Shown: one piece after another, positions 4,646 through 10,770 of the stretch | How the letters are laid out: every line of letters begins with the position of its first letter | Numbering within the stretch: the stretch's first letter is position 1 | Assembly (NCBI RefSeq): GCF_000013045.1 | Contig: NC_007677.1 | Span: 62,001 to 126,000, forward strand | Direction of reading: 5' to 3' | Source: Salinibacter ruber DSM 13855 | GTDB taxonomy: Bacteria; Bacteroidota; Rhodothermia; Rhodothermales; Salinibacteraceae | Length of the DNA: 64,000 nt | Translations under genes and position numbers: made by a program | The notes under the pieces: model-generated | Told to the model about the DNA's origin: nothing | What the model saw: the letters and a program-made list of their open reading frames with translations, nothing else | Databases searched by the model: none

Positions 4646-5572
4646 TTACTCGTCCCCCTCAATCGCCGGCCGCACGAAGCCGTCCGTCGCGTCCAATCGC
4701 CGCCGCGCCTCGTCCACCTCCACGTCCGCGAGAATCATCACGAGGGCGGTCTTCACGTGCCCGTCGCAGCGGGTGAGCACCGCATCCGCCGCGTCGTAGT
4801 CCACGCCCGTCACCATCATCACCGTGCGGATGCCGCGCTCCACGAGCTTCTCGCTGGTGCGCCGCAGGTCCACCATCATGTTCTCGTAGACCTTGCCGAG
4901 GCGCACCATCGCCGCGGTGGTGATCATGTTGAGCACCAGCTTCTGCGCCGTGCCGCTCTTCATGCGCGTGGAGCCCATGATCACCTCCGGCCCCACCACC
5001 GGGCAGATCGCCACGTCCGGGTCCACGTCCAGCTCCTCCCGCGGGATTGTCGTCACGAACAGCGTGGGGCACCCGATCGCGTCGCGGGCGTGCTCCACGG
5101 CCCCCACCACGAACGGCGTGCGCCCGCTAGACGCAATCCCGCACACGACGTCGTTTTCTGTAACCCCCTGACCTTTAAGGGCTTGGGCGCCCCGTTCGGG
5201 CACGTCCTCCGCCCCCTCCTGTGAGCGAAAGACCGCCTCGCGCCCGCCGGCGATGATGCCCTGCACCCGCTCCGGGTCGGTGCCGAACGTGGGCGGGCAC
5301 TCCGAGGCGTCCACCACGCCGAGCCGCCCGCTCGTGCCGGCGCCCACGTAGAAGAGGCGCCCGTCCGCCTCGAAGGCCTCGACGACAATCTCGACGGCCT
5401 CCGCAATGTGCGGGAGCTCCCGGCGCACGGCGATGGGCACCTTGTGGTCCTCCGTGTTGATGACGCGCAGAATTTCCTCCACCGACGCCGTGTCGATGTG
5501 GGTCGAGTGGGGGTTCTGCTGCTCGGTGGCGAGGTCCTGAAGCTCGTCGAAGAGAGAGGACGAGTCGGGCAT
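4646..5572 (-). CDS. murQ: N-acetylmuramic acid 6-phosphate etherase
   Basis: MurQ cleaves the lactyl ether of MurNAc-6-phosphate to give GlcNAc-6-phosphate during cell-wall recycling. The 308-residue length is typical. The SIS domain is clear: GAGTSGRLGVVDASECPPTF (residues about 68-87), the AGGREA loop, GIASSGRTPFVVGA, and the family signature GSTRMKSGTAQKLVLN. The start MPDSSSLFDELQDLATEQQN matches the usual N-terminus (L..L.TE..N); longer upstream open frame is not family-like. It lies downstream of the CHAT gene on the same strand with 68 bases between, including a hairpin. Confidence 0.95.
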   Translation of the reverse strand: MPDSSSLFDELQDLATEQQNPHSTHIDTASVEEILRVINTEDHKVPIAVRRELPHIAEAVEIVVEAFEADGRLFYVGAGTSGRLGVVDASECPPTFGTDPERVQGIIAGGREAVFRSQEGAEDVPERGAQALKGQGVTENDVVCGIASSGRTPFVVGAVEHARDAIGCPTLFVTTIPREELDVDPDVAICPVVGPEVIMGSTRMKSGTAQKLVLNMITTAAMVRLGKVYENMMVDLRRTSEKLVERGIRTVMMVTGVDYDAADAVLTRCDGHVKTALVMILADVEVDEARRRLDATDGFVRPAIEGDE

Positions 5573-5608: not shown

Positions 5609-5642
5609 AAGGGAGACGCTCCTACACCGGAGGCGTCCCTTT
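5609..5642 (-). terminator. Hairpin between the CHAT gene and murQ
   Basis: Immediately after the CHAT stop codon, arms of about 12 bases (GGGAGACGCTCC and GGAGGCGTCCC) can pair with a 6-base loop and a 2-base bulge. There is no long U-tract on the minus-strand transcript, so it may be an attenuating or RNA-protecting stem rather than a full intrinsic terminator. Confidence 0.4.
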
Positions 5643-8460
5643 ATTGCTGCGAGGCTGTGAGCCCCAGCTGGGAGCGAAATCGAACGATGGACCAGCCGAG
5701 AAGAACCACGAGGAGCGCGAGGGCGACAGGGCCCCAGGTCCGGAGCGACGAGCCGTCGGAGGCGTTCATCTGGAGAGGACGAGGGGACCCGTAGAGCACT
5801 GCGGACGCCCAGAAGAAGGGGCTCAGGTTGTCGGGGTGATTCTCCAGGTACGTGAGTTTGGCCCGCCGAAGGGCCTGGTCTTTGGGCTGTCCCGCTCGAA
5901 GGTTCTCGTAGAAGCTCTCCATGAGCGCGACGCTGGACCGATCGGCCGTGGGCCACAGGTTGGACACCGTGGACTGGGCCCCCATGATCCGGAAGGCATA
6001 CTGGAGCCCCGCCATGCCCTCCCCCCCTCGGAGGGCCCCGCGGGCGGTGTTGCACCCACTGAGGACGGCCAACGGGAGGGCCCGGTCGCGGGTCTGGAGC
6101 TCGTGGAGAAACAAAAGCCCGTCCGAGCTGGAGTCGGGGTGGAGAAGAAAGGCGTTCCGGAGGGAGGAGGATGGGGAGACGAGGGCGTGCGAGGCCAGAT
6201 GCAGAACGTCGGCCTCTTGGCTGGCGGCGGCGAAGGCCGGCTCCGTCGCCTGCTCGTCGAGGAACGTCTTCGCGTCGTCGAACAGCCGGTCGAGGGCGTT
6301 AATCTCGGACTGCACGCCGGGCAGAGGGGGCAAGGACAGGGACGAGGCTGCGGTCGTGTCGGCGCGGGAGGACGGCAGGGACGGAGGCGGGGGGCGGAGG
6401 GAATCAAACGAGGACACCCCGAAGGCCGCCAGGTCGGACGAAGACGATGCGGCGTCGCCTCGTGTTGCCGAGGTGTCGGTCGCCAGCGAGGCCGAGAGAT
6501 CAAGTGCCGTCGGGCGTTCGTGGAGCACAAAGCGGGCCTGTTCGTGGTCGTAGCGCCCCCCCGGCGCCGCCGTGGCCAGCATCGAAAATGGCACGTGAAA
6601 CATCGGCCCGTCGGGGATGACCGTTAGGGGCTGTCCGTCGGGGAGGTGCGCCGCCACGGGGGCGTAAAGGTGGTCGTGCAGCGCCCGAAGCGGGCGGAGG
6701 TCGAAGTGCATCGCGCTGATGCTCCGAGACGCCTGCCGGTCCGCGAACAGGGAAGAGATGGTGTTGACGTGAGCCCGGATCGAATCCTGAGAGAGGCCCG
6801 GAAGGGCGACTGCCTGGAGCGTGTCCCCCGTCAGGACGAAGGCCGCAGAGCGAGGGGGGCGGTCGTACACGGGCCACGGGTCGTCGAGGAAGTACGAGAC
6901 GAGGGTCCGATCCTGCTGGGCGATCGACGCAGCGATTTCGTCCACCGACGGTCGCGGCGTCCTTGCCGAGTCGAGACGCAGGACGCGCTGCCGGTTGGCC
7001 ATGAGGCTCGCCTTGCGGGCGCGGAGGGCGGCCTCCGTGGCGTCGGACAACGAGTCGGTGCCGAGCCGGTTGCGCACGTCCGTGAGGGCACGGCCGAGGC
7101 TGTCGAACCGGGCCCGAGTCGCGGGGGAGAGCTGGGTCGCCACCCGGTTCCGCGTACGCAGGTCCCGGAGATAGCGGGCCCGGGTGCGGTCCAGAGCGGC
7201 CAGGGCCGCACGGGGCTGGTTTTGAGCCAGAAGGGTGCGCACGAGCCCGCGGTGCACGTCGCGCCACTGGGTAAAGGCCGTTGAGGCCCACTGCGTGGCG
7301 GTAAGCGACTCCCGATACCGCTTGATCACGGCCACGCCCGCCCGGTATTGAGCCTCTGCCGTGGCCCAATTTTGCTGTAGCTCGTGCAGGCGCCCCAATC
7401 CCCGGCGGATGCGTCGCTGCTGGTCGAGGTTGCCCATCCGTTCGGCGATGGCGAGTGACGTGTTCAGCACCGACTCGGCCTCCGTCCAGCGCTCGGTTTG
7501 CATGTGTAGCACGCCGAGCTTGAGCAGGGCGAAGGCGCGGAGCTGCGCGTCGTCCCGGGCCTGGGCGTACCGGCGCACCTCTGCGTTCAGCGCGTAGGCA
7601 CGGTCGAACGACCCTAGGTACCCGAGGCTTTCGGACAGCGCAAGCGCAAGGTCGATGCGTCGGTCGGAAGACGTGGCGAGCGAACGGCCCTTGCGGGCGA
7701 GATCGCGGGCTCGACGCAGGGACGCCCGATCGAACTCGGTGTTGAGGGTTTCTTCCAGGAGCAGGTTGGCCTGGAGGTAGAGCAGGCGGGCCCATTCGGA
7801 AGGGTGTTCCTCGGACGTACGGTCGTGCTCGCGCGCCAGCCGCCGTGCGCGGGTGTAGTAGCGACGGGCTGACTGGTAGTCCTGGGTGTACTGATGCAGA
7901 AGGCCCACATCGAGAAGGTGGGTGACCCGGAGCCCAACCTCGTGCTCCGAGGTCTTCCGAAGGGCCGTCGAGTAGTGGGTGATGGACGCGGAGAGGTTCC
8001 CGATCCGGAAGTGAAGGAATCCCTGATCCTGATGGAGGGCGCGGATCCACCCCGTGCGGGTGCCCTCGGCGGACGGAATGTTGGGGGCGGCGTTGAGGTA
8101 AGAGCGGGCGTCTTCGAAGGTCTCAAACGCATCGGCGAACCGGCGCAGGGCGGCGAGCAGGGCTGTTTCTACCTGAAACGTGCGCATGATGTTGCCGAGG
8201 TAGGGCCGTTCGACCCGCGAGGGGTCGAGGGTCCGGAAGCAAGCCCGCGCCGCACGCACTTGAGAAAGGTACGCTCGCACCGTGTCCCGGGGCACGGGCG
8301 GGGTGCTGGACCACATTTGGGGCACCCCCTCTCCCCAGTTGATCGGTGGGGGCGACTGGACCGGCGCCTGACGCAGGCACGCATCCAGGTCGTCGGCCGC
8401 GTCGACCGAGAACGGCGGGACGACCAACAGCGATGTGGCCAAGAGAACGACGAGCATCAC
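5641..8460 (-). CDS. Membrane-anchored TPR-CHAT (caspase-like) protein
   Basis: A 939-residue protein. An N-terminal hydrophobic segment (LVVLLATSLLVVPPFSVDA) looks like a signal peptide. A long region of TPR-like helical hairpins follows (residues about 90-430, e.g. repeats with A..Y..A....R). A charged coiled segment leads to a C-terminal CHAT domain. CHAT is a caspase-family cysteine protease fold. The dyad is intact: His758 in LHLASHA and Cys803 in SGCNTARG, followed by the usual GEGMAGLQYAF and WP..D motifs. A final hydrophobic helix (WGPVALALLVVLLGWSIV) and a basic tail suggest membrane anchoring with most of the protein outside the cytoplasm. TPR-CHAT proteins often act in regulated proteolysis or defence; the substrate here is unknown. 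A divergent small gene and a palindrome lie upstream. Confidence 0.88.
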   Translation of the reverse strand: MMLVVLLATSLLVVPPFSVDAADDLDACLRQAPVQSPPPINWGEGVPQMWSSTPPVPRDTVRAYLSQVRAARACFRTLDPSRVERPYLGNIMRTFQVETALLAALRRFADAFETFEDARSYLNAAPNIPSAEGTRTGWIRALHQDQGFLHFRIGNLSASITHYSTALRKTSEHEVGLRVTHLLDVGLLHQYTQDYQSARRYYTRARRLAREHDRTSEEHPSEWARLLYLQANLLLEETLNTEFDRASLRRARDLARKGRSLATSSDRRIDLALALSESLGYLGSFDRAYALNAEVRRYAQARDDAQLRAFALLKLGVLHMQTERWTEAESVLNTSLAIAERMGNLDQQRRIRRGLGRLHELQQNWATAEAQYRAGVAVIKRYRESLTATQWASTAFTQWRDVHRGLVRTLLAQNQPRAALAALDRTRARYLRDLRTRNRVATQLSPATRARFDSLGRALTDVRNRLGTDSLSDATEAALRARKASLMANRQRVLRLDSARTPRPSVDEIAASIAQQDRTLVSYFLDDPWPVYDRPPRSAAFVLTGDTLQAVALPGLSQDSIRAHVNTISSLFADRQASRSISAMHFDLRPLRALHDHLYAPVAAHLPDGQPLTVIPDGPMFHVPFSMLATAAPGGRYDHEQARFVLHERPTALDLSASLATDTSATRGDAASSSSDLAAFGVSSFDSLRPPPPSLPSSRADTTAASSLSLPPLPGVQSEINALDRLFDDAKTFLDEQATEPAFAAASQEADVLHLASHALVSPSSSLRNAFLLHPDSSSDGLLFLHELQTRDRALPLAVLSGCNTARGALRGGEGMAGLQYAFRIMGAQSTVSNLWPTADRSSVALMESFYENLRAGQPKDQALRRAKLTYLENHPDNLSPFFWASAVLYGSPRPLQMNASDGSSLRTWGPVALALLVVLLGWSIVRFRSQLGLTASQQ

Positions 8461-8484
8461 CGGGGGCTAGACGGAAAGCGGTCT

Positions 8485-8503
8485 GTTTGTTAGGTTAACA
8501 AAC
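8485..8503. promoter_or_regulatory. Inverted repeat between the CHAT gene and the Gly-rich small gene
   Basis: GTTTGTTA-GGT-TAACAAAC is a perfect 8-bp-arm inverted repeat, AT-rich in a GC-rich genome. It lies 25-43 bases upstream of the CHAT start and 62-80 bases upstream of the divergent small gene. This is the place and shape expected of a shared operator controlling both genes. Confidence 0.55.
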
Positions 8504-8564
8504 GCTTCTCCTCAAGAGGGACACCAACGTTCACGCTTCTTTCCATAGTGTCCGGTATCACGCC

Positions 8565-8726
8565 ATGACCACAGCAACTGAGCACCTGCGCGACGCCTTT
8601 CGACGTTCTGTTCGTTATGCAGGCGGCGGGGCCGACCCCTCGTCGGGAAGCGGTGGGGGCGGTGGGTCAGGCGGCGGTGGGTCAGGCGGTGGGGGGAGTG
8701 AGGAGGACGAAGAACTTGAAACCTAA
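8565..8726 (+). CDS. Small Gly/Ser-rich protein with basic head and acidic tail
   Basis: A 53-residue open frame divergent from the CHAT gene. It starts MTTATEHLRDAFRRSVRYAGGGADP and then runs into three copies of a GGGGS-like linker repeat (residues about 30-44), ending EEDEELET. Support for it being real: correct start and stop, a shared divergent regulatory region, and a sharply biased composition (helical basic N-terminus, flexible linker, acidic end) rather than random GC-rich translation. No strong Shine-Dalgarno is visible, which is common in this lineage. Function is unknown. Because its neighbour is a CHAT protease, it could be a substrate or inhibitor, but that is speculation. Confidence 0.5.
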   Translation: MTTATEHLRDAFRRSVRYAGGGADPSSGSGGGGGSGGGGSGGGGSEEDEELET

Positions 8727-8814: not shown

Positions 8815-9393
8815 TCAGAACGATTCCGGGCGCCCGTAGAGGGAGGCCGTGCACGTGCAGGTGCCGCCACAGGCGGGACAGTGAGGACGACTGTTCGTCC
8901 GGGCGTAGTAGCGCTCGATGGTGGCAATCCGCGTGAAATCGTGCTTTTCGAACAGCACGCGGCTGCCGACGGGGGCGGGCCGGTGCCACGCGATGCCGAA
9001 CACGCGGGAGACGCCCCGATCGGTAAGCCGCTCAAGCCGGCGCTTGTAGAAGGCGGTCCCGACCCCACGGTTTTCCCAGTCCGCCCGCACACAGGTGAGA
9101 TGGAACAGGCCGTTCTGGGACGCGAGCGGCACGTCCAGGTCAAGCGTGTCGAGCCCAAGGTAGTGGCGGGTGTAGCGCCGGGTGCCCACCTCAAGGAACG
9201 AGACGCCCACGAGGGCATCGTCCGGGCCGACGGCCACGAGTCCAGCGGCCGAGTGGGTCGGGTCCAGGGCCGCCTCAATCCACTTGCGACGCGTATCGGG
9301 CGCGCCCCCGAACCGACTGGCCCAGAGCCGGTCGGCCGCGGAGACATCGGTGGGGGCGAGCGGACGGAGGCGAAACGACGAAGTGTTGTGCAT
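8815..9393 (-). CDS. GNAT-family N-acetyltransferase with C-terminal Cys cluster
   Basis: A 192-residue protein starting MHNTSSFRLRPL. It has the GNAT order: an R.L.P.D..A.. start, a central VGVSFLEV strand and the acetyl-CoA loop CVRADWENRGVGTAFYKRR (Q/RxxGxG/A type, residues about 108-126). The catalytic core ends near FEKHDF. A short tail, CPACGGTCTC, could bind a metal. The start was placed at ATG 9393 because the longer frame upstream is an antisense shadow of recF. It is convergent with the small gene at 8565 and divergent from recF. The substrate cannot be predicted. Confidence 0.85.
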   Translation of the reverse strand: MHNTSSFRLRPLAPTDVSAADRLWASRFGGAPDTRRKWIEAALDPTHSAAGLVAVGPDDALVGVSFLEVGTRRYTRHYLGLDTLDLDVPLASQNGLFHLTCVRADWENRGVGTAFYKRRLERLTDRGVSRVFGIAWHRPAPVGSRVLFEKHDFTRIATIERYYARTNSRPHCPACGGTCTCTASLYGRPESF

Positions 9394-9531: not shown

Positions 9532-10770
9532 ATGATTCTGCACACCCTTCGCCTCCGGTCGTTCCGGGCCCACGCGGAGAGCGAGTTCGACCTCGCCCCG
9601 TCGATCAACCTCCTCTACGGGGCCAACGGGGCGGGCAAGACAAACGTCCTGGAGGCGGTTCACTACCTGTGCCTCACCAAGAGCTTTACGGCCTCGCGAG
9701 ACCGGTATGCCGTCCGCAAAGACGCGCCCTACTTCGAGATTGAAGGCCGCATCGGGCAGGTCCGCGAGGAGCCGATGACCGTGCGGCTGGCGTACGTGCC
9801 GGGCGAGGGCAAGAGCATCTTCGTAAACGGCGCGGAGCTCGACCGGCTGGCGGACATCGTCGGCACGCTGCCGGTGGTTGTCTTCTCGCCGGAGGACTAC
9901 GACCTGACGGCCGGCGGGCCCAGCGAGCGGCGCCGCTTCGTCAACAACATCCTCAGCCAGGCGCGGTCCGTCTACATGGAGACGCTGATGAAGTACCGTC
10001 GCGCGCGGCGCCAGCGCAACGAGGTGCTCCGCAGCTACAAGAAGCGGTCCGCCCCGCCGCCCGACGAGCTCCTGGCCCCCTGGACGGAAAAGCTCGTCGG
10101 GCTCGGCAGCCGCATCGTGCACCGGCGCCAGCAGTTCCTGCAGGCGTTCGCGGACGACCTCGAAGAGGCGTACCGCCGCATCGACGCGGTGGCCGAGCGG
10201 CCCACGATCGAGTACGACACGATTGCGGACCTGGCCCCCGACGCGACGCCCGACGCCATCGAAGACGAATTCCGGGCGGCCCTCGCCCGCAAGCAGGGGC
10301 AGGAACGAGACCGCGGCACCACCCTCGTGGGGCCGCAGCGGGACGAGCTCGTCTTCCGCCTCGACGACCTGGAGGTGCGCCGGTACGGCTCGCAGGGCCA
10401 GCACCGCACCTTTGCCATGGCCCTCAAGCTGGCGCAGTACTTCTACCTGCAACAGCGGAACGACACCGAGCCGCTGCTGCTCCTCGACGACGCCTTCGGC
10501 AAGCTCGACGCGGAGCGCACCGGGGTCTTTCTCGACCTCCTCCGGTCGGACGCCGTGGGGCAGAGCCTCGTCACCGCCACCCGCCGGGGGCCCTTCGAGC
10601 CGGCGCTCAACGCAGAGCCCGCGTCGCACCGTGCCCTGCAGGTCCGCCCGGGCGGCGGGACGGCGGCGGTGACGCCGGATCCGGAGTACGCCCGTGGAGA
10701 GGCGACGGCCGCCAACGGCGCGGCGTCGGCGCCCACAGGGGCTGACGCGGCGTCCACGTCCCGCGACTGA
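9532..10770 (+). CDS. recF: DNA replication and repair protein RecF
   Basis: RecF is an SMC-like ATPase that loads RecA at single-strand gaps with RecO and RecR. The 412-residue frame has Walker A GANGAGKTN at residues 30-38. The arm region includes the RecF-typical RRFVNNILSQ. The ABC signature GSQGQHRTFAMALKLAQ is near 285-301 and Walker B PLLLLDDAFGKLD near 314-326. The last 45 residues are an Ala/Thr/Gly-rich extension beyond the usual end. In many bacteria recF sits with dnaA/dnaN near the origin; here those genes are absent, although parS-like sites lie 6 kb away. Confidence 0.96.
   Translation: MILHTLRLRSFRAHAESEFDLAPSINLLYGANGAGKTNVLEAVHYLCLTKSFTASRDRYAVRKDAPYFEIEGRIGQVREEPMTVRLAYVPGEGKSIFVNGAELDRLADIVGTLPVVVFSPEDYDLTAGGPSERRRFVNNILSQARSVYMETLMKYRRARRQRNEVLRSYKKRSAPPPDELLAPWTEKLVGLGSRIVHRRQQFLQAFADDLEEAYRRIDAVAERPTIEYDTIADLAPDATPDAIEDEFRAALARKQGQERDRGTTLVGPQRDELVFRLDDLEVRRYGSQGQHRTFAMALKLAQYFYLQQRNDTEPLLLLDDAFGKLDAERTGVFLDLLRSDAVGQSLVTATRRGPFEPALNAEPASHRALQVRPGGGTAAVTPDPEYARGEATAANGAASAPTGADAASTSRD

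Follow-up and report, generated by a model that had tools for sequence, protein, structure and literature searches.

The 64,000-nucleotide stretch of the Salinibacter ruber DSM 13855 genome analyzed here (hereafter the window; G000:C1:62001-126000 in our numbering of this two-contig, 3.59-Mb genome) contains a gene for a TPR-CHAT protein, a predicted exported and membrane-anchored cysteine protease, and, divergent from it, a gene for a small acidic protein of 53 amino acids (aa). A divergent small Gly/Pro/Asp-rich frame was identified directly upstream of the CHAT gene in 28 of the 39 genomes of this CHAT family that could be examined. Given that the pair is adjacent in most of the checkable related genomes, the two products may well work together. 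Our tentative interpretation is that the pair could be an old two-gene module of this bacterial class, which we take to be Rhodothermia, in which the exported, anchored TPR-CHAT protease is combined with a small, disordered, acidic protein acting as its dedicated ligand.

The 39 genomes are those with a readable region upstream of CHAT, each represented by one locus; those with an incomplete upstream region (G024, G018, G342, G353, G373 and G398) were left out. The 28 genomes with the small gene include G017, in which the frame has no nearby stop codon, and G007, in which it is below the automatic threshold. Within the genus, seven other genomes with an orthologous CHAT gene encode a small frame of 35-49 aa with a similar start on the opposite strand, and beyond Salinibacter the small gene was found in genomes including Longimonas, Rhodothermus and Roseithermus. 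The initial annotation of this locus proposed a search for the same divergent pair in relatives, and that search found the small frame to be conserved. One locus (L158 of G021) has the small gene between two tandem CHAT genes. A profile search with the small protein family returned 17 matches, spread over 16 of the 195 genomes, and of these matches 11 are located beside this CHAT family and one beside a CHAT gene of a second subfamily discussed below; the profile is poorly sensitive and missed the window genome itself. At L243 (G336:C230:2608-2697), a profile match with an E value of 6.7e-4 was obtained, and none of the large frames in the 9 kb retrieved there was recognized as a CHAT gene. 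On a quick tree of 27 members with and 11 members without the small gene (the truncated G013 was left out), the distribution of the small gene requires at least three changes, only one of which is forced by well-supported branches, a pattern that fits, without proving, an old gene that was lost a few times.

Several observations bear on the coding status of the small frame. The main test examined as many as 450 bases preceding the CHAT gene and was passed by 24 of 33 regions on the divergent strand; on the opposite strand, one of 33 passed, and among 1980 dinucleotide-shuffled sequences, 4 did. The regions that do not pass include those of G007 and G017, and in G165 the gene is present but was mislocated. 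In the focal family, a second, less strict test gave a less clean separation: it was passed by 24 of 32 regions, by 3 of 32 when read on the opposite strand, and by 27 of 1600 shuffled sequences. The criteria of both tests were chosen once initial examples were already known. The proportion of synonymous differences (pS) exceeds that of nonsynonymous differences (pN) in all 13 chosen pairs of small genes aligned as proteins, with pS of 0.13 vs pN of 0.02 for the window gene and its G010 counterpart. The small frame looks to be protein-coding and under selection.

The CHAT domain of the larger protein is matched by PF12770 with a score of 234.5 bits vs a cut-off of 24, and TPR_12 and TPR_2 are matched as well. 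Several relatives begin at the ATG codon that we prefer as the start (Table 1). The C-terminal hydrophobic segment is retained in all 38 aligned members of the family, and the likely location of the protein is the outer face of the inner membrane, to which it would be anchored. Behind the membrane helix, the protein ends in a basic tail, with a median charge of +25 per 100 aa in the 27 members with the small gene and +30 in the 11 members without it. Two cysteines located early in the portion presumed to be exported (C27 and C73) are invariant in 19 aligned members and possibly form a disulfide bond. The AlphaFold model has a predicted local distance difference test (pLDDT) score of 80.9 and a predicted template modeling (pTM) score of 0.80, and the nearest solved structures are those of DdvA, Csx29 and separase. 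Over the full length, TM-scores reach only about 0.2-0.4, as the domain arrangement differs or is unsure in the model. The only PADLOC match is partial (residues 718-873 to BovA, E value of 1.9e-8). TPR-CHAT proteins are widespread in the phylum, with 90 of 296 sampled genomes matching this profile at an E value of 1e-40 or better. The initial description of a TPR-CHAT protein with an intact His/Cys dyad is borne out by Pfam and the alignment, with export suggested by inspection and the membrane helix by the AlphaFold model.

The small proteins are highly diverged. In the 27-row alignment, the mean column identity is 20%, and the majority pattern comprises the initial methionine followed by GG(x)GG-x-DP-x-x-P, with hardly any other conservation. 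An ATG start is possible in all 27 frames (the start was picked by the analyst where several ATG codons were available), and all 27 computed net charges are negative, from -2 to -16. Double-glycine leader peptides have a conserved motif preceding GG and a dedicated ABC exporter with a peptidase; in most Salinibacter proteins, GG follows a segment of 18-21 aa, but no leader motif is shared. Judging from the alignment, the conserved traits are a short N-terminal segment, the GG(x)GG-x-DP core and net acidity. The basic helix, Gly/Ser repeats and acidic tail initially described for the 53-residue frame are all present as reported; the single-sequence model is of low confidence beyond residues 4-20. 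The GGGGS repeats were considered as a functional core and rejected, given that most relatives lack them; they are one way to fill the middle part of the protein. An amphipathic N-terminal helix as a common trait was similarly unconvincing (mean z of 0.49 over the 27 proteins). No significant match was found for the window protein in Pfam, NCBIfam, PADLOC or plasmids, or for five other members in NCBIfam.

Table 1. Features of the CHAT locus and its surroundings (window coordinates)
Feature	Position	Strand	Evidence and remarks
SIS-domain protein	4646..5572	-	Pfam scan; CHAT neighbour in most loci searched
TPR-CHAT protein, 938 aa	5641..8457	-	ATG at 8457; alternative GTG at 8460
C-terminal membrane helix, residues 903-930, then short tail	5668..5751	-	AlphaFold model
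CHAT peptidase domain	5785..6696	-	PF12770, E=2.3e-69
Predicted catalytic Cys802 codon	6052..6054	-	Invariant in 19-row alignment, kept in 38/38 members
Predicted catalytic His757 codon	6187..6189	-	Invariant in 19-row alignment, kept in 38/38 members
TPR-type helical repeats, residues about 57-493	6979..8289	-	Pfam TPR matches to parts; helices of AlphaFold model
Hydrophobic N-terminus, residues 1-20	8398..8457	-	Read as signal peptide by inspection; aligned relatives likewise hydrophobic
Inverted repeat GTTTGTTA-GGT-TAACAAAC	8485..8503	.	Between the two genes; arm of 8
Proposed partner gene, for a small acidic protein of 53 aa	8565..8726	+	ATG...TAA; open reading frame, conservation, codon evidence
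Basic N-terminal segment	8565..8624	+	Helix 4-20 in single-sequence model, pLDDT 82-86 there
GGGADP, local form of conserved GG(x)GG-x-DP core	8622..8639	+	27-row alignment
GGGGS repeats, variable	8655..8699	+	G010 has four residues fewer; most relatives lack them
Acidic C-terminal tail EEDEELET	8700..8723	+	Open reading frame translation, 27-row alignment
GNAT-like protein	8815..9393	-	Pfam match below cut-off; same genus only, among loci searched
RecF/RecN/SMC-domain gene	9532..10770	+	Pfam; CHAT-locus neighbour in most loci searched

In most of the mapped loci, the pair is embedded in a recurrent gene order, murQ - CHAT - small gene - recF - M48. Here murQ and recF are presumptive names for the SIS-domain and RecF/RecN/SMC-domain genes, respectively, as is M48, assigned with the help of Pfam domains where these were scanned. 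The perfect inverted repeat with 8-bp arms between the two genes, which was initially considered to be shared by them, is real but is not conserved between loci. It is the sole such place in the 3.59-Mb genome, with up to two mismatches allowed, and among the eight Salinibacter-genus loci read, it is retained only in G010; on these grounds, a role as an operator was rejected. The window contains 31 perfect inverted repeats with an arm of 8 and a spacer of up to 8. The palindrome is a local feature and no conserved part of the gene pair.

Small genes are also found next to other CHAT genes. A second CHAT subfamily, with all fetched loci from the family f18 (possibly Balneolaceae), has a divergent small Gly/Asp/Pro-rich frame, recognized by eye, in all 17 of these loci. 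A test is passed by 14 of them, whereas none of the 17 passes on the opposite strand and only 4 of 1700 shuffled sequences do; two or three of the small frames are not net acidic. The CHAT proteins of this subfamily (L226-L242) are about 930-1010 aa long, with a hydrophobic N-terminus, and terminate with the CHAT domain, lacking a membrane helix. In 12 of the 17 loci, the CHAT gene adjoins an ftsY-like gene; Pfam confirmed one of these genes. Among 20 other CHAT loci, a strict test detected no small frame free of a larger frame. This test requires many Gly and Pro residues and passed over a small co-directional gene for a lipoprotein-like protein of 61-85 aa located directly upstream of CHAT in six of the 20 loci (L179, L180, L183, L187, L189 and L196). 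In these loci, the CHAT protein has a hydrophobic N-terminus and a C-terminal membrane helix, as in the window; the small genes differ from that of the window in being co-directional and lipoprotein-like and, in three loci, tandemly repeated, with four copies in L189 and two each in L183 and L196 (one copy partly masked). The tandem copies would fit a partner that is required in quantity. Near the CHAT gene of L196, there is a divergent gene with a weak match to sigma-70 region 4 (E value of 4.5e-5, below the cut-off). In another six loci (L178, L184, L185, L186, L191 and L193), CHAT is found beside genes that read as a sigma factor and a small TPR/anti-sigma protein; in L184, Pfam identifies these neighbors as Sigma70_r2 (E value of 3.9e-10) and TPR. 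A generalization that we regard as rather doubtful is that exported CHAT proteases of this class often carry a private small disordered partner, divergent and leaderless in two subfamilies and a lipoprotein, sometimes amplified, in others. The protease would then be a caspase-like switch that senses the envelope, and the partner an inhibitor or substrate that it consumes.

The whole CHAT domain, the TPR repeats and the His/Cys dyad are common to the window protein and the CHAT family at large, and proteolysis is predicted; unlike known TPR-CHAT proteins, the window protein has a hydrophobic N-terminus, a membrane helix and a small divergent gene. The TPR-CHAT fold of Csx29, a component of Craspase in type III-E CRISPR, is similar to that of the window protein (7y9x_B, Z of 28.2, root mean square deviation of 11.1, 641 residues). 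Csx29 is reported to work with Cas7-11, to be RNA-activated and to cleave Csx30, a product of its own locus that consists of 565 residues in two predicted domains and inhibits an extracytoplasmic function (ECF) sigma factor (PMC10028731). The small protein of the window has 53 residues in contrast to the 565 of Csx30, and the neighbors identified here are murQ, recF and M48-like genes, no search having been aimed at cas genes. The best Foldseek match is DdvA of Myxococcus xanthus (8rot, 8rw5; E value of 7.6e-14), with a full-length TM-score of only 0.22-0.24 and a Z of 20.9 over 608 residues. DdvA is a transmembrane anti-sigma factor, as stated in the PDB titles and in PMC4374960. It contains about 360 extra residues before the aligned part, presumably the anti-sigma part, which the window protein lacks: the open frame of the latter begins three codons before the hydrophobic N-terminus, and the Pfam scan shows no anti-sigma domain. 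No sigma factor gene is present among the neighboring proteins scanned or mapped; the whole genome was not searched. A CHAT protease with a partner encoded in the same locus is already known, and the proposed small divergent partner of an exported CHAT protein is the new part. In the open-licence PubMed Central literature, no account of this gene pair was found among the matches listed, and no paper combines 'CHAT domain' with 'Salinibacter'. The initial suggestion of an undescribed pair is supported insofar as the two genes are conserved and linked, in three genomes without recF nearby, and fails with respect to the GGGGS repeats and the palindrome, neither of which is conserved.

Under the two-gene module interpretation, the CHAT protease would be exported across the inner membrane and stay attached to the periplasmic side through its C-terminal helix, a topology suggested by inspection of the protein. 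The N-terminal segment of the small protein, together with the GG-x-DP motif and the acidic tail, might then bind the TPR/CHAT ectodomain. The small protein could be a pseudo-substrate that restrains the protease until envelope stress displaces or consumes it; alternatively, it could be a substrate whose cleavage relays the signal. In either case, the CHAT protein would be an envelope sensor with the small protein as its private ligand, by analogy with Csx29, which cleaves a protein of its own locus, and DdvA, which is an anti-sigma factor.

A number of observations weigh against this interpretation. A CHAT gene with the dyad but without an adjoining small gene is found in 11 of the 39 family members (G020, G418, G033, G383, G379, G389, G375, G345, G036, G034 and L076), in all of which the start of recF is close to the CHAT gene; the small gene is therefore not obligatory. 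Joint losses of the two genes can be explained as single deletions of the whole block and accordingly do not represent many independent events. Five of the profile matches of the small protein are not tied to a CHAT gene, being located elsewhere or at unexamined sites, and given also the poor sensitivity of the profile, exclusive location of the small gene beside CHAT is not supported genome-wide. Among the 20 other CHAT loci, 14 show neither kind of small gene, and several of these 14 have a sigma-factor-like gene next to CHAT. Members that possess the small gene have a more basic TPR region than the others (raw p=0.0005; p=0.003 relative to recF/murQ of the same genomes, with G055 and G109 omitted because recF/murQ were not available for them), but charge complementarity was rejected because averaging over clades leaves p values of 0.08 and 0.19, which are not significant. 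The strongest objection appears to be the compartment: no export signal was seen by inspection in the 27 aligned small proteins, while the CHAT domain is predicted to be periplasmic.

The same objection is the starting point of the principal alternative, namely that the small protein is cytoplasmic and acts indirectly, by aiding insertion or anchoring of the CHAT protein or by binding its basic cytoplasmic tail, and never meets the protease domain. The opposite charges of the tail and the small protein are compatible with such binding. However, the tail is equally basic in the members that lack the small gene, and the positive-inside rule alone would give a basic tail behind a membrane helix; furthermore, the lipoprotein-like small genes of the six other CHAT loci encode proteins that would reach the compartment of the protease. 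On balance, we consider a purely cytoplasmic role unlikely, although it has to be taken seriously.

The conserved gene order allows another explanation, that the small gene is tied to recF or is unrelated to its neighbors, its adjacency to CHAT being an accident of stable synteny, inasmuch as recF lies beyond the small gene, in the same direction, in most loci searched. The loci in which the genes are separated speak against it. Between recF and its neighbor, no small frame is present in any of the eight readable recF-murQ loci without this CHAT (G001, G005, G008, G016, G022, G032, G037 and G038; G002, G012, G019 and G023 were unreadable and are not counted), where recF stays. In G016 and G022, one scan was confined to the recF-proximal part of the gap; a full 7-kb scan of L154 revealed a single 49-aa frame, judged unlike the small protein family. 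Of the G016 and G022 regions (L144, L154), that of G016 has a 593-aa frame, ABC-transporter-like by reading, between recF and murQ, with CHAT elsewhere, and the gap between these genes in G022 is of similar size. Conversely, the pair is present in G055 and G109, where the 13 kb retrieved contain neither recF nor murQ, and in G015, where murQ but no recF is found within 12-13 kb. Together with the absence of the small frame from the CHAT-less loci, these cases indicate that it is CHAT, and not recF, that the small gene accompanies. A gene in the opposite orientation splits the small gene from recF in Salinibacter, and the second CHAT subfamily, mostly located next to the ftsY-like gene, has a similar small gene. 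An association with recF or an accidental one is thus improbable.

It is about equally improbable, perhaps slightly more so, that the small protein is exported as a signal and perceived by the TPR-CHAT protein as its receptor, as in the RRNPP pairs of Gram-positive bacteria, in which a small gene likewise adjoins the gene for a TPR protein. The TPR part structurally resembles Rap proteins (4i1a, Z of 19.6; 8rtc, Z of 17.8), although TPR folds match widely. No hydrophobic signal like the signal sequence of the exported RRNPP propeptides was seen by inspection of the 27 small proteins, the putative receptor itself appears to be exported and protease-like, and the sequences of the small proteins diverge strongly while their composition is kept. 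Finally, the notion that the small frame is a chance open reading frame, which could be entertained because 16 kb of this GC-rich DNA yields 88 frames of at least 50 aa, is contradicted by the shuffle tests, the excess of pS over pN and the conservation of the frame, and can be practically discarded.

To our knowledge, exported TPR-CHAT proteins have no established substrate or regulator. The co-travelling small gene provides a named candidate ligand for these proteins, so that the question of what an exported bacterial caspase-like protein acts on becomes approachable with two purified proteins. If such small proteins are indeed consumed as inhibitors or substrates of an envelope-sensing switch, as in the rather doubtful generalization above, this would be a new bacterial protease-microprotein signaling system.

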